This document shows positions 12,214 to 30,263 of a stretch of 64,000 nt of DNA, piece after piece; position 1 is the stretch's first letter; each line of letters starts with the position of its first letter. Both the position numbers and the translations under genes were made by a program. The stretch is from an uncultured bacterium. Lineage in GTDB: Bacteria > Bacteroidota > Rhodothermia > Rhodothermales > UBA10348. Where the stretch lies: assembly GCA_938018055.1 (NCBI GenBank), contig CALIKL010000011.1:53810-117809 (forward strand), in the 5' to 3' direction. Under the pieces are notes generated by a model. The model saw only the letters and a program-made list of their open reading frames with translations, did not search any database and was not told the origin of the DNA.

Positions 12214-12285
12214 GCGGGTGTAGCTCAGTGGTAGAGCATCACGTTGCCAACGTGAGGGTCGTGAGTTCGAATCTCATCACCCGCT
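12214..12285 (+). tRNA. tRNA-Gly (anticodon GCC)
   Basis: 7-bp acceptor GCGGGTG/CACCCGC, D-arm TAGCTCAGTGGTAGAGCA, anticodon loop TTGCCAA, T-arm GTTCGAATC. Confidence 0.93.
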
Positions 12286-12377: not shown

Positions 12378-13268
12378 TCACTCAACCATATGAGCCGAAT
12401 TCTTCAGGTCGGCTACAACCGGGAGGTGATCCGAGGGATACGCTCCGTTCACGATGGGATCCAGGACGTCGTATGTCAGCACCTGCCAGTTGGGTTGGTG
12501 AAATATGAAATCGATACGGACGGACGTCTCCGATGCGGGATCGAATGTTCGAAAGGTACCGGACTCATCTGGCAACGTAGGCGGGCTCAGCCCTGCATCT
12601 TGCCAATCGCCCTGGACAATAGCCTTGTACGGCGCAGATTCTGGCTCGACATTGAAATCCCCCAAAGCGATATCGAATGAGCTGCTCCAATCGCGGATCA
12701 AACGCGCGCTTTCGAGTCGGGCCTGCACACCTCTATGGTCGAAATGGGTATTGATGACGCGCACTTCACGCCCAGTCGTCTTGTCCCGGAATGTTGCTCG
12801 GGTGGCAACACGCGGCAAGGCTGCATCCCATCCGACACTGCCCACTTCATCCGGTGTCGCTGAAAGCCATTGCGTATCCCACGAAATCAATGCAAAGCGC
12901 GTAGAATCAAACAGAATAGGCGAAAATTCGCCACCCCGAAGGCCATCATCACGACCCACTCCGATCCAGTCGAAGCGCGTTTGAACCGCCATGATATCGA
13001 CCAATTGGCGGTAAACGACCTCCTGAAGCCCCACAATTTCGGCTTCACTGGTGTCAATCAAGGCTGCGACCCAATCTGAGCGCCTCTCCCAACTGTTTGC
13101 ACCATCATTCGGACTGGCCCAACGAATGTTGAACGTCATGACGCGAATGTGCTCGCCGGCATCATCAGGCTCTTCGGACACTGGCGAAGAACATCCAACG
13201 ATCAGTAAAGCGATCACGCATGATGCGACCGAACGCATCCTCAGCGCACGAATAAGGTGGATCATCAT
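12378..13268 (-). CDS. endonuclease/exonuclease/phosphatase family lipoprotein
   Basis: Lipobox-like ALLIVGCSS, then VMTFNIRWASPNDG, EIVGLQEV, INTHFDHRG, ALGDFNVEPES, PSDHLPVVADL; internal ATG at 13268 chosen. Confidence 0.88.
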   Translation of the reverse strand: MMIHLIRALRMRSVASCVIALLIVGCSSPVSEEPDDAGEHIRVMTFNIRWASPNDGANSWERRSDWVAALIDTSEAEIVGLQEVVYRQLVDIMAVQTRFDWIGVGRDDGLRGGEFSPILFDSTRFALISWDTQWLSATPDEVGSVGWDAALPRVATRATFRDKTTGREVRVINTHFDHRGVQARLESARLIRDWSSSFDIALGDFNVEPESAPYKAIVQGDWQDAGLSPPTLPDESGTFRTFDPASETSVRIDFIFHQPNWQVLTYDVLDPIVNGAYPSDHLPVVADLKNSAHMVE

Positions 13269-14704
13269 ATCAACTTCTCGCGGAAGGCTGAAACGGCGAG
13301 GAAAACGATGCCAAAGACGGCGCCTGTAAGTGTAGTCAACCAAGGAAGGCCCAGCATTCCCACACCCCAGACGATGGCCAGTAACGGAGCGCCTGTCGCA
13401 ATGTATCGCACATAGGGCCGCACCATGTCTCCGAGCGAGCATCCGGCCAGCGAAAGCAGCCAGATTATCTGACCTAGCCGAACCAGAGCACCGCCTACGC
13501 CCAGGTAAACCAGCAACCTCGTGATGTCTTCGCCTCGACTTCCGAGCCACAAAGCGGAGGAAATAACGATCAGGCTGATGACCGTAATGAGAAGTTCTAA
13601 TCGCTGTCGCTCAAGGACGTCGAAAAGGCGCGTGAGTGGCGAGGCGACAACGGTCAGGAGAATCCATGGAGCAACGTAGGACAAATAGGTAGCACCCGGC
13701 CGCCAGTCCTCCCCGAATAGTGTAGCGAAAATGTCGCCTCCGGCGACCATCAACACCGCGGTAGGCCAAAATGCCATGAGTACGAGACGGGCATGGACGT
13801 TTCCGGTGAACGCTGCAAGACCTCCGTCCCGGTGTGCTTCCACCGCTCGAACAAAGAACACCTGAGCGATGGATGCGGCCAGCAGGCTCAGTGGTACGAA
13901 TAAGATGCTGAACCCTCGGGAATACTGGCCAAGAACAGCCATGCCAAAGATTTCCGGGATGAACAGAATGGGTAAGCGGGTAATCAATCCACTGATCATT
14001 GCCGCTGGCATGGTGAAGAGCGGAAAGCGCCGGTAACGACGCGCGACGGCCTTGATTTCGGTCCACGATGGCCTGCCCGAGAAAGATGCTCGTAGTGTCA
14101 CCACGGTCTTGCGACTCATGGACACGAAAGAAAGCGCGAATCCGACCACGAACCCCCAAACCAGAGCACCTGGGCCTGGTTTGATGAACCCAGAGATCAA
14201 ACGGACACCCACCATCGAACCGGCCTGAGTGACTTGTGCCGCGGAAATGCGACCAAAAGCCTCCTGGCGACTGAGCCACAACTCCGTGATCTTGGCAAGT
14301 CGATTGGCCATCAGAGCCATAGGTAAAATGAGCATCCATTGTCCGCCTTTGTTGGCGAAAAAGCTCATCGCCGAATCAGACGTGCTGAGAACAAGCAGAA
14401 GCACCGAACAGAATACCATGACGGAGGATACCGTCAGCAGGTAAGCATGAGCGCTTTTTCGACGGTCCTGTGGCAGCATGAGTGCGTCCTCATACCGCAA
14501 CGAGGCGACAGGAGCCAGAATGGAAACCCAGGCCGTTACGTAATCGGCAATTCCCCAGAATTCGTCCGGATACAGTCGCAGGAGGACGATTTGGGCCAGG
14601 TAGGCGATTACAAAAGCAATCCCATTACCCGAGAGCAGCTTCAAGACAGGCGCCCTGAAAGCAGAGTCTTCAAACAAGGCGAGTATGCGTTTGCGAAGGG
14701 TCAC
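13265..14704 (-). CDS. polysaccharide/O-antigen flippase-like membrane protein
   Basis: Many TM segments; SGNGIAFVIAYLAQIVLLRLYPDEFWGIADYVTAWVSILAPVASLRYEDALMLP typical of Wzx-like proteins; alternative start up to 14776. Confidence 0.75.
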   Translation of the reverse strand: MTLRKRILALFEDSAFRAPVLKLLSGNGIAFVIAYLAQIVLLRLYPDEFWGIADYVTAWVSILAPVASLRYEDALMLPQDRRKSAHAYLLTVSSVMVFCSVLLLVLSTSDSAMSFFANKGGQWMLILPMALMANRLAKITELWLSRQEAFGRISAAQVTQAGSMVGVRLISGFIKPGPGALVWGFVVGFALSFVSMSRKTVVTLRASFSGRPSWTEIKAVARRYRRFPLFTMPAAMISGLITRLPILFIPEIFGMAVLGQYSRGFSILFVPLSLLAASIAQVFFVRAVEAHRDGGLAAFTGNVHARLVLMAFWPTAVLMVAGGDIFATLFGEDWRPGATYLSYVAPWILLTVVASPLTRLFDVLERQRLELLITVISLIVISSALWLGSRGEDITRLLVYLGVGGALVRLGQIIWLLSLAGCSLGDMVRPYVRYIATGAPLLAIVWGVGMLGLPWLTTLTGAVFGIVFLAVSAFREKLI

Positions 14705-16332
14705 GAAGCAGGGGGGCGAACGGGTTGCGTGAGAATACGGCCTGCCCAGAATACACACCACTGCGCTCCACACCACTCGGGCTGAAGGGTTGCAGACCAG
14801 TCAGCTGGATCGTCGACAGGCCGGACGAAGTAATCCACGTTGGCCTCCGCAGCAAATAGTCGCATGTCTGAGACGGTTTGGGCGTCGTAGGCACTATCGA
14901 GTCTGGCAAGTAGAGCCAGGCCACCGGGTAAGTCTGTTGTCGGAGCGATCTCATGAAGTCGTTGGCGCCACTCCAGTGTGGGCTCGGGCGCAAAAGGGAA
15001 CGACTTGAAAGACACATACTGAGCGTGCTGACTTCCAAACTGGAATCCCGTCATGGATGGCGGGATAACGAATACTGCCCGTTCATTCGCGTTTTCACGC
15101 GACCACTCGAACACCTCCTGGTTCGTCGACGAGACGCCTTTGATGTCATTTCCTTTGCCTGCGAAGGCCATCAAAAGAGCTACGAGTGCGAGCAGTGGTA
15201 AGGCAATGTTCAGCGCACTTGACGTACGAGGTGTGTCTGACCGTACGAGACTGGTCCAACGATCGTTGAGCCACGATGCCACGGCTCCGGCTATGACCAA
15301 TGCGGATATTGCCCGCACCAATGGTGATACCGCCCATGGTTGAAGGCGGACTGCAGTACCCCATTGGAATGGCCATGCAGTCAATGTGAGCGAGACCAGC
15401 AATACAACGGTAGGCACGATCAGTATTTTTGCCAGAAGCGAGCGATCCCAACGTGAGAGGGGGCCCTGAATATCCGCGCCTGATGAGGGCGCTCTACTCG
15501 CATTCTGCTGCCAGTCCCAGCCCAGGATCACTCCGGCAGACAAGACCAGAGCAAAAAACGTAACCCAGGTCTTCACGTTGAACAGCTCAGGTAGGTAGTG
15601 GTGCGGAGCCCGCACCTGCGTCAGGATGTAGGTTGCCTCTTCCGTACTGGTACCAACGGAAGAAAGCACAATAACGAGCGGAATCAGGACCAACCCTATG
15701 GGAATGGCTTGCTTTCGCCACGCAGACCAAGGCCATTTCGGAAGAAAAAACCCAATGAGCAGCAAGAGCCCTCCCGCTTGCAAGCCAAGCAAGGGATGAA
15801 AAAGTGCTCCCAAGGCAAGCAAGGCCCCTGATGCCAGGGCTTTTCGTTCGTGCATGCGTACTACAGCCCAAAGGATTAAGCACCACGCGATACTCGAGGG
15901 CACCAGCATGGCATGCAAGATGTCATTGCCCCCTGGATTCCAACGAGTCGTAACCACCATGACGGCCAGGACGCTTGCCAGTGCGGACCAAACATTGCCG
16001 AAAACCCGATAGCTGAGTTTTACCACGGCCAATGAACTTCCGACGGCTGTTGCCAGATGCCAGCCCAGCACAACGGCCCAAACAGGAAGTATGGTACTCG
16101 GAAGCGCGACCAAAATGGCCACTGGCCAGCGAATACTGAATCCTTCGATCTGCATGGCAACAAACCAATCGCTCGCGAAGGCGTCACTATTCAGTAAAAA
16201 GCTGGCCAAAGGCAGGAATTCATCCTGATCGCTGTACCCGAAGCCGTATCCGTAGCGGAACACAAATAGGGCGGTTGCCGCCAATGCTGCAGCCCATTGC
16301 CAACCCGGTGTGGAAGAATGCCGTCCGTCCAT
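14701..16332 (-). CDS. large polytopic membrane protein, possibly DUF6798-like or glycosyltransferase-C-like
   Basis: 543 aa with about 10 or more hydrophobic segments; YGYGFGYSDQDEFLPLASFLL, GALFHPLLGLQAGG. Confidence 0.6.
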   Translation of the reverse strand: MDGRHSSTPGWQWAAALAATALFVFRYGYGFGYSDQDEFLPLASFLLNSDAFASDWFVAMQIEGFSIRWPVAILVALPSTILPVWAVVLGWHLATAVGSSLAVVKLSYRVFGNVWSALASVLAVMVVTTRWNPGGNDILHAMLVPSSIAWCLILWAVVRMHERKALASGALLALGALFHPLLGLQAGGLLLLIGFFLPKWPWSAWRKQAIPIGLVLIPLVIVLSSVGTSTEEATYILTQVRAPHHYLPELFNVKTWVTFFALVLSAGVILGWDWQQNASRAPSSGADIQGPLSRWDRSLLAKILIVPTVVLLVSLTLTAWPFQWGTAVRLQPWAVSPLVRAISALVIAGAVASWLNDRWTSLVRSDTPRTSSALNIALPLLALVALLMAFAGKGNDIKGVSSTNQEVFEWSRENANERAVFVIPPSMTGFQFGSQHAQYVSFKSFPFAPEPTLEWRQRLHEIAPTTDLPGGLALLARLDSAYDAQTVSDMRLFAAEANVDYFVRPVDDPADWSATLQPEWCGAQWCVFWAGRILTQPVRPPAS

Positions 16333-17385
16333 TCAGTCCGCCTCCGATCGTTGCTCAGAGATTCGTTGTGTTGTCCGACTCTGAGTAAGACGCGTCAGGA
16401 AGTGGGCCATTGAATTGGTCAATCCGCCAATAAGTGAGCGTGACGACACGTGTGCGTACGTCACATGCTGTCCGCCAAACCGTCGCTTGAATTCGGCAAT
16501 GCCGGGGGTATTCGCGCCCATGAGGTCAAGCGTTGCAATACCTGCCGCATGAAGCTCATCCTGGACATGAGCCATCAATACAGTCATACCAGGCCCAGGT
16601 TTGCTTCCAGCAATCCAATACCATGCTGTGCGCTCGTCATGCAGGGCAACGATGGCCGCGACTACTTCGCCCGTATGCCGATCATGCAAGCCGTAGACGC
16701 GTGCCAGTCCTGCATATACCAAATCCCTGGCCCACCGAGCCAACGCTCTTGGCGGGAGCGGAAGACGTCGTCCCGCCCGGCGGTACGCAGAATCAGCCAG
16801 AAAAACAGCACGTTGGATGACCTCGTCAAGCTTCTTGGCTTCGGAGCCAGCTGTTCGTGCCAGATCATGCGAGCACCAGAAAACAAAGTCGGACACCGAT
16901 TTTCGAACCTGGCGCCTTTGGGCAGCGGACCAAGAGGCAATAGCCACCTCAAAAGGACCACTGGACAGGTGATAGGTGTATCGTTCTACCACTCGAATAC
17001 CACGACCCATCGTCTTTGGATGGAGTGCTGCATATTGCTCCGGAGTAATCGAAAGAATCCAATCTGACGGTAGATCCGGAGACGATCTCAGCCGTCGGAT
17101 AAGGTCGAGAGGATCTGCAACTGGACCGATGGCAGAAAAAGGCTGAAAAGGCGGTAATACCAGATCGCGAACAAGTCCCCGAGACCGGACAAACGTGCTC
17201 AAGAGCGCGTCGCCCGGAGTTGTCAGAACCAGACGCTTCCAGGTAACAATACGCTCCAGCCCATCCTGGAAAACGGGATGGAGGAAGGGCGAGGGATTGG
17301 TCCAGGTCGTGTGAGTACCCTTCCACGCCGCACGGCATTCGGCTGACTGGGTCAGGACGGTGAGGGAAGAAGGAGAGGCACTCAC
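16333..17385 (-). CDS. FemAB/BioF2-like GNAT-fold acyltransferase
   Basis: YGLHDRHTGEVVAAIVALHDERTAWYWIAGSKPG ... LDLMGANTPGIAEFKRRFGG pattern. Confidence 0.7.
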   Translation of the reverse strand: MSASPSSLTVLTQSAECRAAWKGTHTTWTNPSPFLHPVFQDGLERIVTWKRLVLTTPGDALLSTFVRSRGLVRDLVLPPFQPFSAIGPVADPLDLIRRLRSSPDLPSDWILSITPEQYAALHPKTMGRGIRVVERYTYHLSSGPFEVAIASWSAAQRRQVRKSVSDFVFWCSHDLARTAGSEAKKLDEVIQRAVFLADSAYRRAGRRLPLPPRALARWARDLVYAGLARVYGLHDRHTGEVVAAIVALHDERTAWYWIAGSKPGPGMTVLMAHVQDELHAAGIATLDLMGANTPGIAEFKRRFGGQHVTYAHVSSRSLIGGLTNSMAHFLTRLTQSRTTQRISEQRSEAD

Positions 17386-17398
17386 GATAGGGATACGG

Positions 17399-18832
17399 TC
17401 AGAGGATGTACTGGCTCAGATCCCGATTTTGAACCACTGCGGACAACTTTGTTTGGACCATCTTGTCATCAATTACAAAAGAGTCCTCGCGCATTGCATC
17501 GGGAACGTCGAATAACAGGTCCTCCAGAAGGGTCGTCAGAATGGTGTGCAGTCGTCGGGCCCCAATATTTTCCACCTCTTCATTCACGGCCGCGGCCATG
17601 CGGGCTACTTCCTTGACCGCTTCCTCCTTGAATTCTACAGTAACGCCTTCTGAGGCCATGAGGGCGATGTATTGCTTGAGCAGCGCGTTTTGGGGAACGG
17701 TCAAGATGTTGAAGAAGTCGTCTTCGGTCAGATTGTCCAGTTCAACCCGTATCGGGAAGCGTCCCTGAAGCTCTGGAATCAGGTCGCTCGGTTTTGCAAC
17801 ATGGAAGGCTCCGCTGGCAATAAACAAGATATGGTCGGTTTTGACCATCCCATACTTCGTATTTACGCTCGATCCTTCGACGATAGGCAGTAAGTCACGC
17901 TGAACACCCTCGCGTGACACATCAGGACCGCTTTTGCCGCCAGCGCCACCTCTGGCCGCAACCTTATCTATCTCGTCAATGAATACGATTCCGGATTGCT
18001 GGACGCGCTCCAGGGCTTGGCGGGTCACCTTATCCATATCGATAAGTTTACCTGCCTCTTCGGCTGTCAGGACTTCGCGTGCTTCGGAAACAGGGATCCG
18101 ACGCTTTTTTCGCTGTTTACCGCCCATGTTGCCAAACAAGTCCTGCAGATTGACGCCCATCTCCTCCATGCCCATGGGTCCGAAGACCTGCAGCATTGAT
18201 GACTGGTCGGACGCCACCTCGATTTCGACTTCGCGCTGGTCGAGGTCTCCTTTGTCGAGCATCTTCTTGAACTTCTCCCGGGTACGCTGACGGAGCGCAT
18301 CTTCCTCGGAGGAAACGTCTGGCGGACCGGCAGTTGGGGTTGCACCGGCTGCTGCAGCTGCAGGAGATGGAGGGCGGATAGTCGGCTTGGTGGGCGAGGG
18401 TGGAATCAGAATATCCAGGATGCGCTCGTCCGCGAGCACACGAGCGCGCTCCTGAACTGAGACGGTGTGCTCCTCGCGCACGATGCCGATGGCAATGTCG
18501 CACAAGTCACGGATCATCGAGTCGACATCGCGACCAACGTAACCCACCTCGGTGAATTTGGTGGCTTCCACCTTGATGAACGGAGCACCCGACAACTTGG
18601 CCAGCCGCCGGGCGATCTCGGTCTTCCCGACGCCTGTTGGCCCAATCATGATGATGTTGTTTGGGACAATTTCCTCGCGCATGTCAGCTGAAGCGTTGAG
18701 CCGACGCCATCGGTTGCGAAGCGCAATGGCAACGCTCTTCTTCGCTTCCTTTTGACCGATGACATATCGGTCCAGTTCAGCGACAATCTGGTGTGGGGTA
18801 AGTTCGTTCTGAATGGACATGTTCAGTTGCAA
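17399..18832 (-). CDS. hslU: HslUV protease ATPase subunit
   Basis: LTPHQIVAELDRYVIGQKEAKKSVAIALRNRWRR, GPTGVGKTEIARRLAKLSGAPFIKVEATKFTEVGYVGRDV, C-terminal SQYIL. Confidence 0.97.
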   Translation of the reverse strand: MQLNMSIQNELTPHQIVAELDRYVIGQKEAKKSVAIALRNRWRRLNASADMREEIVPNNIIMIGPTGVGKTEIARRLAKLSGAPFIKVEATKFTEVGYVGRDVDSMIRDLCDIAIGIVREEHTVSVQERARVLADERILDILIPPSPTKPTIRPPSPAAAAAGATPTAGPPDVSSEEDALRQRTREKFKKMLDKGDLDQREVEIEVASDQSSMLQVFGPMGMEEMGVNLQDLFGNMGGKQRKKRRIPVSEAREVLTAEEAGKLIDMDKVTRQALERVQQSGIVFIDEIDKVAARGGAGGKSGPDVSREGVQRDLLPIVEGSSVNTKYGMVKTDHILFIASGAFHVAKPSDLIPELQGRFPIRVELDNLTEDDFFNILTVPQNALLKQYIALMASEGVTVEFKEEAVKEVARMAAAVNEEVENIGARRLHTILTTLLEDLLFDVPDAMREDSFVIDDKMVQTKLSAVVQNRDLSQYIL

Positions 18833-18841
18833 TAGGACGTG

Positions 18842-19840
18842 TCAGTCCGATGGGTATTCGTCATCATCATCGTCATAATTCCCGTCGGAATCGTCATAGT
18901 AGTCATCATTCGCCTCGGATTGATCTTCATGATCGTCATCATAGGACGCGTATTCGTCAGAATCGGTCAGCGAGGATTCCTTGATCTCAGCTACATCCGG
19001 ATGCTCCATGTTCATGAGGAGGACCGTGTAGTTGTGAGGAAAGCCACGTCTCTTTTCCAACCAGACAGCCCCAACTTGTTCTAGATCGTTGATCAAGACT
19101 TTTGGCTCCTCATCCGGATCATCGATGATTTCCGAAAGCTTGCGCAGAAGCGGGGTCAGATAGATTTCTTCGTATTGGCCGAAATAGGATTCGATGATGC
19201 CAAGAGTCTTCAGCACAGCAGTATCCGTGATGGCAACCGTTTCGGTCGGACGCTGGCTTTCTCCTTCAGAATCTTCGTCTTGATCCGAAGCAAGGTCAAG
19301 TTTGCGACCAGGACCTCCGAGGAGGAAATCTGCGCTCAAGTACAGATCCTGGCAATCAGCGGGAAGATCATCTTGAGCCGATGGCGACTCGAGTGTGGCC
19401 ATCAAGACAAAGTGACCCGAGCGGAAAAGTCGCTGTACGAGGGGTACGAACCATTGATTGCCAGAGAGTACGACGAACGCTGTACCCGGACCCATTTCGG
19501 CGGAAAGCTTCATAGCCTCCATGGCCAGTTCGATGGCAGCTGCCTCGTCCCTGGAACGGGCATAGCAGAGATGCGGCTCGATTCCCTGGGCCAACCACGC
19601 TCCCGTCGCACGATGACCTCGCATGGTGCCGGGTGGCAAATTGGCAAAAGCCAGCGTTCGTACGGGTCTCAGATTCAGGTGCTCTGAAACGTGACGCTTA
19701 AGCGATGTCACCAGATCCAGCACCACTGCATCCGGCTGGTCATTATCAATCCGCTCGGATATCACACCGAATACATTGGTGTAATCAACCAGGATAACGG
19801 CGTTGCGGGTACGCGGACGGTAGGAAGACTTGCGTGCAGC
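18842..19840 (-). CDS. degenerate NYN (PIN-like) domain protein with winged-helix-like region and acidic tail
   Basis: NAVILVDYTNVFG N-terminus, VVLSGNQWFVPLVQRLFRSGHFV at the SGDxDFxP position, C-terminal D/E/Y/S-rich tail; between hslU and hslV. Confidence 0.65.
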   Translation of the reverse strand, partial: AARKSSYRPRTRNAVILVDYTNVFGVISERIDNDQPDAVVLDLVTSLKRHVSEHLNLRPVRTLAFANLPPGTMRGHRATGAWLAQGIEPHLCYARSRDEAAAIELAMEAMKLSAEMGPGTAFVVLSGNQWFVPLVQRLFRSGHFVLMATLESPSAQDDLPADCQDLYLSADFLLGGPGRKLDLASDQDEDSEGESQRPTETVAITDTAVLKTLGIIESYFGQYEEIYLTPLLRKLSEIIDDPDEEPKVLINDLEQVGAVWLEKRRGFPHNYTVLLMNMEHPDVAEIKESSLTDSDEYASYDDDHEDQSEANDDYYDDSDGNYDDDDDEYPSD

Positions 19841-19901
19841 CATTCTGAATTTCCTCAATTAAAGACAATAAAAACCGAAAGGGCGGGAAGGTGGCCCAAC
19901 G

Positions 19902-20468
19902 TTACTCGAGCTCAAGAATCGTAAGTGTATCGTTCGAATAGATACATATTTCCGAGGCGATCGTTAGCGATTGCTCAACGATCGTTCTGGCATCCATGTC
20001 CGGTGCATGACGCACCATGGCGCGCGCCGCTGCGAGTGCGAAAGGACCACCGGATCCGATGGCAAGAATCTCATCGTCAGGCTCAATGACATCGCCTGTT
20101 CCGCTGATGACCAAAAGGCGATCCTTGGCCGCGACGGCAAGCAGTGCTTCAAGTCTACGCAGATACCGATCGGTGCGCCAATCTTTTGCCAGCTCGACCG
20201 CGGAACGCGTAACGTTACCACCAAACTGCTGGAGCTTCTCTTCGAAGCGCTCGAACAACGTAAACGCGTCTGCTGTGGCTCCGGCAAAACCCGAAAGGAT
20301 GGCTCCATCGTAAAGGGAACGGACTTTCTTGGCGCTGGCCTTCATGACCGTATTTCCCATGGTGGCTTGGCCATCAGAGCCAAGTACCACTTTTCCGTTG
20401 TGCCTGATGCCAACGACGGTCGTGCTGCGGATACGATTGGAGGAGCGGGAGGAATCGTGCTCACTCAT
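19902..20468 (-). CDS. hslV: HslV protease peptidase subunit
   Basis: [65 protein letters not shown]. Confidence 0.96.
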
Positions 20469-20554
20469 GCGATAACAACCCTGAAAAACAATTCAAACAA
20501 TACTGCGAAACTATGAATGCCTTTACCACAAGACACGACTCATGTTTCGACCAG

Positions 20555-22069
20555 TCAGTCAGGGAGGCCGTACGTATGGTGAGCGAGTGCGGCCATGATT
20601 CGGTCCTGAACCAGTCGGGCTCGCCGGGACGATTCTGTGTAATGATTTGCCATCATGGATACGATCAGCGTTCGGCCGTTGGCGGTATCCACATACCCGC
20701 TCAGCGCGGCTACATTACCCAGCGTGCCTGTCTTTGCTCGGACGTTGCCTTCTGCCGCTGTATCGCGCATGCGAGACGATAGTGTTCCATCCACACCGCC
20801 AATTGGGAGGGAGGTGATAAAGGCCTCTCGGGTAGCGTCATCTTCGTGATGCCACATGTAGTGCAATAACCGGGCGGTCATGGTTGACGTAACCAGGTTT
20901 TGTCGCGCTAGCCCTGATCCATCGACCAGCTGCAGGCGCAAGGTGTCCATCCCTGCTGCTCCAAACGTCTGTTTACGGGCTCGATCCAGTGCAAGAGCAG
21001 CCGATCCCGCAGCTGGTTCATCTTCGGTGGGAAGCTTTGCAACCGCAACGGCACGAAGCACCTGCTCGGCGTATAGATTTTGACTCCGCTTGTTGAGCGG
21101 TACCACGATGTCGCCTAGGGAAGGACTGAAGTGGCTGAAAAGGTGCTGATATTCATCCCGGGATGGCTTGATGGCCAGTTCGTCAATATCCACGGATCGC
21201 CCACGCACTGCGATTCCCTCTGAGAGAAGTACTTCTCTCAGGACGTGCACGAAAAAGGCCGTCGGATTGGAAACTGACAGGGACTCGACTTCTGTGCGTC
21301 CTTCAGGCACCTTCGAGGCGATAATGAAGTCATTGGTGCCCTGTACCCGGAAATAGTCCTCTTCAATGCCGTTCTGAGGTCCTATCGTGATGGATTCATT
21401 TCGCGTGGTGACATAGCTCGTCATCATCGGCTCCCAGGAAAGCACGGCAGGCATTCCCTCGGTGGCTGCTTCCAGACGGATGTCGACACAATTATCATTG
21501 AAGCTTAGCGCGCTCATTTCTGCTGCATACCACCAAGGAAGATCGTCCCATTGCCATCCGTAGCCGATGTATTCCTCGTCGAAAGCATCATCGTCGCCGA
21601 TAACGTGTCCATCGATGGATCGAATTCCGAGTGCTTTCAACGAGTCGGCCCAGCTTCGAAAGTATGCCGTGATATCGCCATCTGTGAAGCGTCCCCCGAT
21701 CACGGGGTCGCCAGAGCCGATGACAATCAGGTTGCCGCTCAGCACACCATCCTGAAGGGTGCCATCGGTCTCGAGCCTGGTTTCAAATCGAAAGTCCGGA
21801 CCGAGGATATCGAGCGCTGCTGCGGTGGAGTACAGCTTGGTATTGGATGCTGGAATGAAACTGCGCCCCGTATCTCTCTCATACAGCGAGTTACCGGTTT
21901 CGGCGTCCCAAACGAGGATGGTCCACCAGGCATTCTGAATCCCTCCCTCAGCAACGATTTCGTCGATTGCACCTCGAAGCTCGGTCGTCGTATTGGTCTG
22001 AGCGGACGCGGAGAAAACGAACGATGCGCCTGCGATTAAAATACTCAGTGAGGCGAGGCGTCTGGTCAT
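20555..22069 (-). CDS. dacB: D-alanyl-D-alanine carboxypeptidase/endopeptidase (PBP4 family)
   Basis: FIPASNTKLYSTAAAL (SxxK), DGSGLARQNLVT, VRAKTGTLGNVAALSGYV (KTG). Confidence 0.92.
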   Translation of the reverse strand: MTRRLASLSILIAGASFVFSASAQTNTTTELRGAIDEIVAEGGIQNAWWTILVWDAETGNSLYERDTGRSFIPASNTKLYSTAAALDILGPDFRFETRLETDGTLQDGVLSGNLIVIGSGDPVIGGRFTDGDITAYFRSWADSLKALGIRSIDGHVIGDDDAFDEEYIGYGWQWDDLPWWYAAEMSALSFNDNCVDIRLEAATEGMPAVLSWEPMMTSYVTTRNESITIGPQNGIEEDYFRVQGTNDFIIASKVPEGRTEVESLSVSNPTAFFVHVLREVLLSEGIAVRGRSVDIDELAIKPSRDEYQHLFSHFSPSLGDIVVPLNKRSQNLYAEQVLRAVAVAKLPTEDEPAAGSAALALDRARKQTFGAAGMDTLRLQLVDGSGLARQNLVTSTMTARLLHYMWHHEDDATREAFITSLPIGGVDGTLSSRMRDTAAEGNVRAKTGTLGNVAALSGYVDTANGRTLIVSMMANHYTESSRRARLVQDRIMAALAHHTYGLPD

Positions 22070-22117
22070 GACAGCGTTGGAGTGGGTACAAGGATGAAAT
22101 GGACAATGCCCGTAAGA

Positions 22118-22945
22118 TCAGAAACCATCATCGGGAAGCAGTGCCGGATCAACGGCATTATCTGAGGGCGTACGAACGACAAATACATGGCTCAAGTTGT
22201 CCAGTCGAGCATTCGGCCGCACATGAATGATCCAGGTACTGGTGCCCGGTTCGGCAAACACCGTATCCACAACACCAATAGGATAGCCTGGCTGGGAAAA
22301 GGTAGAGTAGCCATTGGTTACGACAAGATTGCCGCTGGTCACCGGGGCGGAGCGCACCACATGCTCCAAAATAAGTCGATCAAACCGACGTCCATCCCAG
22401 CGCACGATACCATCGGTCAAGGACGGCAATACGCTGGCCGAGACAAAGAAGTCGGCGTTCAGGTAGGTCATGACGCGAGAGTAGTCGTTGCCAACCAGCG
22501 TAACCTTTCCCACGATGCCAGAGGGGTCGATGACAGCCATGTTTTCCTCGATACCGTCTTCTCGGCCGACGTCGATGGTCAGGAAATTCCGCTCCGACGT
22601 GATGTCCTTGGCTGAAACGCGAGCGGCCAGCACCTCATAATTCAACGTGTCAGCCAGCGCCAGCATGGATTCGAGACGTTGATTCTCAGCTTGTGCACTC
22701 CGCATCAGGGCGACCTGATTTGCCAGGTCAATGTTCTGTGTACGAAGGACTTCGTTCTCGTCCAGCGCTCGGACGTAGCGTCCGAGACCGGCGAACAAGG
22801 ACTCGATTGATGCGGTGGCTTCCAGTGAGCGGGCGCGCAGGCCGCGCAGCATGTCCTCGTTGACAGTCAGCATGACCACCAGCGATGACACGATCAGCAC
22901 ACTGAGCAGTACCCAGTCTCTCGTACGTTCCCAAATCCGATTCAT
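22118..22945 (-). CDS. mreC: rod shape-determining protein MreC
   Basis: N-terminal TM, coiled-coil, SERNFLTIDVGREDGIEENMAVIDPSGIVGKV, VVTNGYSTFSQPGYPIGVV. Confidence 0.88.
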   Translation of the reverse strand: MNRIWERTRDWVLLSVLIVSSLVVMLTVNEDMLRGLRARSLEATASIESLFAGLGRYVRALDENEVLRTQNIDLANQVALMRSAQAENQRLESMLALADTLNYEVLAARVSAKDITSERNFLTIDVGREDGIEENMAVIDPSGIVGKVTLVGNDYSRVMTYLNADFFVSASVLPSLTDGIVRWDGRRFDRLILEHVVRSAPVTSGNLVVTNGYSTFSQPGYPIGVVDTVFAEPGTSTWIIHVRPNARLDNLSHVFVVRTPSDNAVDPALLPDDGF

Positions 22946-22982
22946 GACTTCTGTCCAGTTGACGGAATATCGTCATTGCGGA

Positions 22983-24557
22983 TCAGTGGCGGAAGTGCCG
23001 ATTGCCCGTAAAGACCATGGCAATGCCGTTCTCATCTGCGGCAGCGATTACTTCCTCATCCCGGACCGAGCCCCCAGGTTGAATAGCGGCCGTTGCGCCA
23101 TTCTTGGCAGCTTCCAGCAATCCATCCGCAAAGGGGAAGAAGGCATCTGAAGCGACTACGCATCCATCAAAGCTCAGCTCGGACTTACGCCCCTTTGAGA
23201 CGGCAATCTCCGACGCATCGATTCGGCTCATCTGACCGGCACCTACACCGATGGTTTGCCCATCCTTCGCGTAGACGATAGCGTTGCTCTTGACGTTTTT
23301 GGCGACGCGCCAGGCAAAGTCGAGATTTTTCCATTCGGCCTCGGTCGGTTGACGCTTTGTAGGCACCGAGCAGCGGGCTCTAAGGTCTTCGAAAGACGGC
23401 AGTACGTCATCACGGTCCTGAACCAACAAGCCGCCCACAACCGACCGAATATCCATCCCATCCTCTTCAGAGGCCCATCTCAGCATCTTGACCAGACGAC
23501 GGTTCTTCTTCTGCATCAAGAAATCCAATACCCCTTCACCAAACTCAGGGGCGATGATAATCTCCGTGAAAACCTTGTCGATAGCCTCCGCTGTAGCGAG
23601 GTCAAGGGGTTGGTTAACCACCACGATACCACCGAAGGGGGACTGACGGTCGGTAGAAAATGCCTTGTGGTAGGCCGACTCCAGATCGGTTGCCGTACCA
23701 ACGCCACACGGATTGGTATGCTTGAGAATGGCCACCGTTGGATCCGCATGGCGAAACTCGTCGATGATGGTCAACGCCGCGCTGAGGTCAAGCAAGTTGT
23801 TGAAGGAGAGGTCCTTTCCATGCAGCTTTTCAAACAGCCCCGAGGAGTCACCGAAGAGCCCCGCCTGTTGATGAGGATTTTCGCCATAGCGGAGGGTCTG
23901 TTGAAGCGGAGCGTCGATTGCAAGTGACGCAGCGGCACCCTGGAAGTAGGCAGACACGGCCGTATCATACACGGCTGTGTGATCGAAAGCAGCAGCAGCA
24001 AGACCGCGGCGCGTAGCCATGGACAGCGTGCCCTCGTTGGCATCCATCTCCGATATGATGTCGTCATACCACTCTGCTGAACAGGCGACCGCGACGAAGA
24101 AAAAGTTCTTGGCGGCTGCTCGAATCATGGTTGGGCCACCGATGTCAATGTTTTCGATCGCAACGGCATCGGTGACATCATCGCCAGATGTGGCCTCTTC
24201 AAACGGGTACAGGTTGACGACGACCAAGTCGATTTCTTCAATTCCCTGTGCTTTCAATTCGACCTGGTCCTCGTCATCCGTACGACGGGACAGCAAGCCG
24301 CCATGGACGGCTGGATGCAGGGTTTTGACCCGACCGCCCAGAATCTCAGGATACCCGGTCAGCGAGTCAACAGAAGTCACAGGCAAGCCTGCTTCGGAAA
24401 GAGCGCGGGCTGTTCCGCCTGTAGAAATCAGCTCCACGCCGTGACGATGAAGAGCTTTCCCAAGATCAACGACTCCCGTTTTGTCAAAGACAGAGAGCAG
24501 GGCGCGACGGATAGGGTATCGATCAGAGGGCTCGGGGAGATCTTTGACGTGGATCAT
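22983..24557 (-). CDS. purH: bifunctional AICAR formyltransferase/IMP cyclohydrolase
   Basis: [65 protein letters not shown]. Confidence 0.97.
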
Positions 24558-29973: not shown

Positions 29974-30048
29974 CGGTCCGGACGAGACTCGAACTCGCGA
30001 CCTCCTGCGTGACAGGCAGGCGTTCTAACCAAACTGAACTACCGGACC
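29974..30048 (-). tRNA. tRNA-Asp (anticodon GTC)
   Basis: Minus strand GGTCCGGTAGTTCAGTTTGGTTAGAACGCCTGCCTGTCACGCAGGAGGTCGCGAGTTCGAGTCTCGTCCGGACCG; all arms pair. Confidence 0.95.
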
Positions 30049-30190: not shown

Positions 30191-30263
30191 TGGTCAGGGA
30201 CGGAATTGAACCGCCGACACATGGATTTTCAGTCCATTGCTCTACCAACTGAGCTACCTGACC
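30191..30263 (-). tRNA. tRNA-Phe (anticodon GAA)
   Basis: Minus strand GGTCAGGTAGCTCAGTTGGTAGAGCAATGGACTGAAAATCCATGTGTCGGCGGTTCAATTCCGTCCCTGACCA. Confidence 0.95.

Follow-up and report, generated by a model that had tools for sequence, protein, structure and literature searches.

HslUV is a bacterial relative of the proteasome. The axial channel of E. coli HslU contains Arg101, which binds glutamates of an autoinhibitory plug (PMC7849044). Proteins that combine DUF88 with a winged helix-turn-helix (wHTH) are predicted to be RNases, 2qip (VPA0982) being the reference structure for DUF88/LK-nuclease, and for bacterial LK-nuclease plus OST-HTH genes, no conserved linkage with known RNA-processing systems in the gene neighbourhood is reported (PMC2848206). 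MARF1 is an endoribonuclease with Asp358, Asp426, Asp427, and Asp452, and replacement of Asp426/427 by Ala abolishes most of its NYN activity (PMC6294520). We analysed a stretch of 64,000 nucleotides (the window) from an uncultured bacterium, in which a gene for an NYN-domain protein lies between hslV and hslU. We tentatively regard it as a lineage-specific third hslVU gene, the product of which would serve HslU as a dedicated adaptor or regulator and be made together with it. The locus comprises the following genes:

19902..20468, minus strand: hslV, upstream neighbour (TIGR03692, E 1.5e-79)
18842..19843, minus strand: NYN-winged-helix gene embedded in hslVU, 333 aa (sequence and PF01936; 98 of the 103 Rhodothermales genomes with a completeness of at least 80% have an orthologue)
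17399..18820, minus strand: hslU, next gene downstream, probably starting with the ATG at 18820 (TIGR00390, E 2.2e-194; sequence)

The initial annotation had placed an ORF on the minus strand between hslV and hslU, and this ORF proved real; the TIGR03692 and TIGR00390 matches identify both neighbours. Its span had been given as 18842-19840; this has the right end of the stop codon (18842) but omits the start Met, the ATG being at 19843-19841, with a GAGG Shine-Dalgarno-like motif about 10 nt upstream. The spacing from hslV is 58 nt. The gap to hslU is short, as first described, but the 9 nt then proposed presume an upstream TTG start at 18832, and the distance from the likelier hslU ATG at 18820 is 21 nt. 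The ORF exceeds what is expected by chance, because about 100 genomes have an orthologue at this position, and because dN is low with dS saturated. Promoter and terminator scans of the locus gave signals at chance level. Searches with PHROGs and PADLOC were both empty and thus connected the gene neither with phages nor with defence.

We also observed that HslV of the window has about 15 residues (window 20424-20468) ahead of TT, the first residues of catalytic HslV chains. This stretch is shorter in some relatives (e.g. MTPIHATT in L083), and its length suggests processing or that translation starts later. The window also contains three tRNA genes (Rfam RF00005), at 12214-12285, 29974-30048, and 30191-30263.

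The distribution of the gene was determined in 103 Rhodothermales genomes at least 80% complete, including that of the window. The full-length protein was found in 98 of them and in 0 of 115 genomes from other orders of the class, which gave generic NYN-domain matches only; the named records for the same loci are Rhodothermales. The order hslV-NYN-hslU was observed in every gene-bearing contig spanning the site except in G068, where hslV is on another contig and the NYN gene still adjoins hslU. In L083, a gene for a TetR-type regulator and another ORF (L083:4297-4917) lie between hslV and the NYN gene, which is again adjacent to hslU. By contrast, hslV and hslU abut without an NYN gene in the sister orders and in family f4. 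In no genome of the class was the full-length gene found remote from hslU, except for pieces cut by contig ends. Both co-occurrence and adjacency with hslU, the pattern looked for in an HslUV accessory protein, were thus observed, and the proposed conserved co-location with hslUV withstood a synteny survey of the order and its sister orders. Adjacency is, however, weaker evidence than it appears, because gene order is broadly conserved in this region anyway: the block purH-mreC-dacB-hslV-NYN-hslU-femAB-glycosyl/membrane gene-murJ-like (window 13265-24557) is kept across most families. Although conserved together, these genes serve purine synthesis, the cell wall, and proteolysis.

Several apparent exceptions were discarded. 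The joint absence of the NYN gene, hslV, and hslU in two genomes is best put down to incomplete assemblies (G002, with a completeness of 62%, also lacks DacB; in G218, DacB is at a contig end). Long ORFs resembling NYN fusions (L046, L082, L085) are read-through frames in GC-rich DNA, and three identical copies near contig ends of one assembly (G215) look like an assembly duplicate.

In a tree of HslU and HslV (support of 97 for the clade of the order), f4 branches off first within the order. As it has no NYN gene, the simplest history is one insertion after the f4 split, and the gene probably entered once at that point and was kept since; a loss in f4 could also account for its absence there. 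L150 represents a nested, clean loss, with the purH-mreC-dacB-hslV-hslU-femAB block intact. A winged-helix profile searched over 393 genomes of the phylum found matches in Rhodothermales and in one genome of another order only. The homologue in the latter (L184:7281-8318), which matches the full-length profile (E 1.3e-43) and recurs in its genus, g119, is remote from hslV and hslU, and has intact catalytic acids (DDDDD), a winged helix with a net charge of +1, and a short, nonacidic tail. It may represent a lateral transfer or the remnant of a wider family.

The protein encoded in the window has these parts:

19319..19807, minus strand: NYN (DUF88, PIN-like) domain, residues 13-175 (PF01936, AlphaFold2, Foldseek, profile match to 2qip)
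19784..19786, minus strand: D20, the first catalytic Asp of NYN, present in all 82 orthologues (alignment)
19451..19459, minus strand: N129-Q-W131, where D-x-D stands in NYN nucleases (SGDxDF motif; alignment)
19001..19222, minus strand: winged-helix domain, residues 208-281, with the highest conservation in the protein (AlphaFold2; mean pairwise identity of 61% across the order)
18845..18973, minus strand: disordered acidic tail, residues 291-333, with some 50% D/E and no K/R (AlphaFold2, composition)

Its assignment to the NYN family, made at first by eye, proved sound. The protein matched PF01936 with an E of 1.6e-7 (32.4 bits, above the gathering score of 24.2), as did 51 of 51 divergent orthologue representatives (best E 1.3e-23). 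AlphaFold2 modelled the NYN domain and the winged helix (208-281, followed by a helix) with confidence, and the linker and tail with low confidence; run on 51 orthologues, it gave a mean pLDDT of 84.6, with NYN blocks mostly above 90. In Foldseek, the NYN domain was closest in structure to the MARF1 NYN (5yaa, 6fdl; TMt 0.65-0.74, with 0.74 for 5yaa), indicating the PIN-like fold of the family, and the sole match of a full-length profile to PDB sequences was 2qip (VPA0982; E 1e-5).

The canonical acidic positions read D20, A103, E109, N129, and W131 (D-A-E-N-W) in the window protein. All five acids are intact only in families f9 and f12 (10 of 82 sequences), and these are the only members with the cluster of catalytic acids of an active nuclease. 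Positions other than D20 vary, with about 12 changes on the tree at position 129 alone. The NYN nuclease site has thus eroded repeatedly within the order. In the family of the window, 103 has become Ala or Ser, 105 has changed from Gln to Asp or Glu, 109 is Glu, 129 is mostly Asn, and 131 is Trp, retained by 22 of 23 members. The NYN domain of this eroded family is under purifying selection (dN 0.08-0.2, dS saturated), so the active site looks repatterned rather than decayed. Erosion of the active site, as seen in the initial annotation, is thus supported for the window protein, with N and W in SGDxDF and the acid lost at 103, but it is not a property of this protein family, since the five acids are intact in f9 and f12. 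An intact alternative acidic site, which would have spoken against degeneracy, was looked for in the orthologue alignment and none was found, though the window's family gains an acid at 105. Because the second Asp is replaced by Ala and the Asp of SGD by Asn, the MARF1 mutants predict that the window protein is inactive, and it probably is.

The winged helix and the acidic tail noticed at first sight were both recovered by AlphaFold2, as residues 208-281 and, at low confidence, 291-333. Modelled alone, the winged helix had a pLDDT of 86 and resembled PadR/LmrR/RTP-type proteins in Foldseek (TM about 0.5-0.6, E about 0.01), without a sequence match. No Pfam family was found for it, and its profile gave chance-level matches only against PDB sequences. 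Membership in OST-HTH/LOTUS, put forward for checking, was not found: no OST-HTH match appeared at E values up to 1 among 51 members, nor at values up to 10 in the winged helix of the window protein. A ClpS Pfam match of one member (E 0.44) was ascribed to chance. The mean identity over the order was 61% for the winged helix; NYN reached 31%, the tail 20%, and the linker 16%, and the values of HslU and HslV were 70% and 73%. The winged helix is thus under a constraint close to that of HslU and HslV. The combination of an eroded NYN site with a near-constant winged helix suggests a dedicated partner of the HslUV protease.

The median net charge was -6 for NYN, -7 for the winged helix (never positive in 82 orthologues), and -3 for the recognition helix; winged helix and recognition helix were net negative in all 82 sequences. 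HslU and HslV did not differ in net charge between this order and its sister orders, so the acidity of the NYN protein reflects no obvious proteome-wide shift. Binding of nucleic acids by the winged helix is therefore unlikely, as judged from these charges, and the earlier reading of the protein as nucleic-acid-binding is not supported, all three parts being net acidic. The same data bear on the best-surviving alternative, that the protein is a heat or stress factor of the LK-nuclease type, which binds or cleaves RNA (perhaps the mRNA of its own operon) and shares only its expression with hslVU. The NYN fold, the intact DDDDD of f9 and f12, and the predicted RNase function of DUF88 plus wHTH proteins (PMC2848206) are in its favour. 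We consider it unlikely, since the site is eroded in most of the order, the domains are net acidic, and the window protein has Ala and Asn at positions where MARF1 loses most of its activity upon mutation of Asp426/427 to Ala (PMC6294520).

Among the roles of adaptor, regulator, or delivered substrate of HslU, we rank that of a partner or adaptor first, though with less than even confidence. A nuclease would have been recruited into the hslVU operon after the f4 split; its conserved function would then no longer be RNA cleavage, and the winged helix and the inert NYN fold would form a protein-docking module. The flexible acidic tail would engage the HslU ring, approaching the arginine-lined axial channel, and the protein, produced together with HslU, would act as its adaptor or regulator. 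HslU of the window has an Arg matching E. coli Arg101 (GYVGRDVDSMIRDL), which offers a plausible docking site for the acidic tail. More doubtful, though possible, is the full proposal of a first dedicated HslUV accessory factor (adaptor or pore regulator), in which an ex-RNase would serve as docking module with its acidic tail on the HslU ring throughout the order. In favour of the partner model, the adjacency to hslU survived the rearrangements in G068 and L083, and the unlinked L184 homologue differs in its DDDDD, its winged helix of net charge +1, and its nonacidic tail. Against it, L150 is viable without the gene, and the nuclease site is apparently intact in f9 and f12. The tail, acidic in most orthologues (medians of 41% D/E, 3% K/R, and 40 residues), also comprises only 6 aa in L103 and lacks its acidic character in L071. 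A distance-correlation test with only 17 taxa found no extra co-evolution of NYN with HslU and HslV over MreC, DacB, and PurH, and no convincing positions in HslU or HslV separated genomes with the gene from those without it.

The tail could also mark the protein as a dedicated substrate, i.e. an RNA- or protein-binding regulator with a level set by HslUV through degradation from its unstructured acidic end, co-transcription balancing both. AAA+ proteases begin degradation at unstructured termini, and the C-terminus is modelled with low confidence, is acidic, and belongs to a gene that adjoins hslU. Degron binding in the HslU channel has also been described (PMC7849044). This explanation is nonetheless improbable in our view, because the winged helix has changed nearly as little as HslU and HslV, which argues for a stable, specific interface, and because the last eight residues vary freely among orthologues, leaving no conserved C-terminal degron. 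That the gene is a chance insertion fixed in a syntenic block, with no functional tie to HslUV, agrees with the conservation of the whole block (purH-mreC-dacB-hslV-(NYN)-hslU-femAB-murJ-like), the nonspecific rate covariation, and the homologue unlinked to hslV in another order, but is improbable, and ranks last, given the retention of the gene with hslU through two rearrangements, the strong purifying selection, and the failure to find it full-length away from hslU in the class.

A partner of HslU, our preferred reading, would make this order-wide third operon gene a concrete candidate HslUV adaptor, no dedicated one having been found in the literature searched. The protein also provides a traced case of active-site loss in a nuclease fold within one order, with selection retained, and active-looking and repatterned versions both exist for comparison. 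The culturable Rhodothermus and Salinibacter belong to Rhodothermales and should carry the gene. Open-access literature on NYN with HslU or HslV, on HslUV adaptors, and on HslUV in Rhodothermus or Salinibacter yielded no paper on this gene, which is thus undescribed in what was searched, though absence is not proof.

The proposed role is like that of the AAA+ protease adaptors ClpS, SspB, RssB, and MecA, to which there is no sequence relation. We know of no HslUV adaptor of this kind, nor did the titles and abstracts retrieved point to one. The C-terminal domain may share its fold, including the helix after the wing, with PadR/LmrR/RTP-like proteins (TM about 0.5-0.6), without a sequence family match; its acidic recognition helix makes PadR-like DNA binding unlikely. 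Compared with the MARF1 NYN, the window protein keeps the first Asp, has no acid at the second position, and has Asn at SGD, the correspondence being by motif and read by eye. With the L184 homologue the similarity is full-length, but that protein is unlinked to hslV and hslU, has intact DDDDD, and lacks the acidic tail. With DUF88/LK-nuclease proteins carrying a C-terminal wHTH (2qip, LabA-type), the window protein shares the N-terminal fold, the motif frame, and the layout of NYN followed by a winged helix. It differs from LK-nuclease plus OST-HTH proteins in that its wing is not recognised as OST-HTH, the catalytic acids are gone in most members, and, unlike the bacterial genes of that type, it has a fixed neighbourhood, in hslVU.
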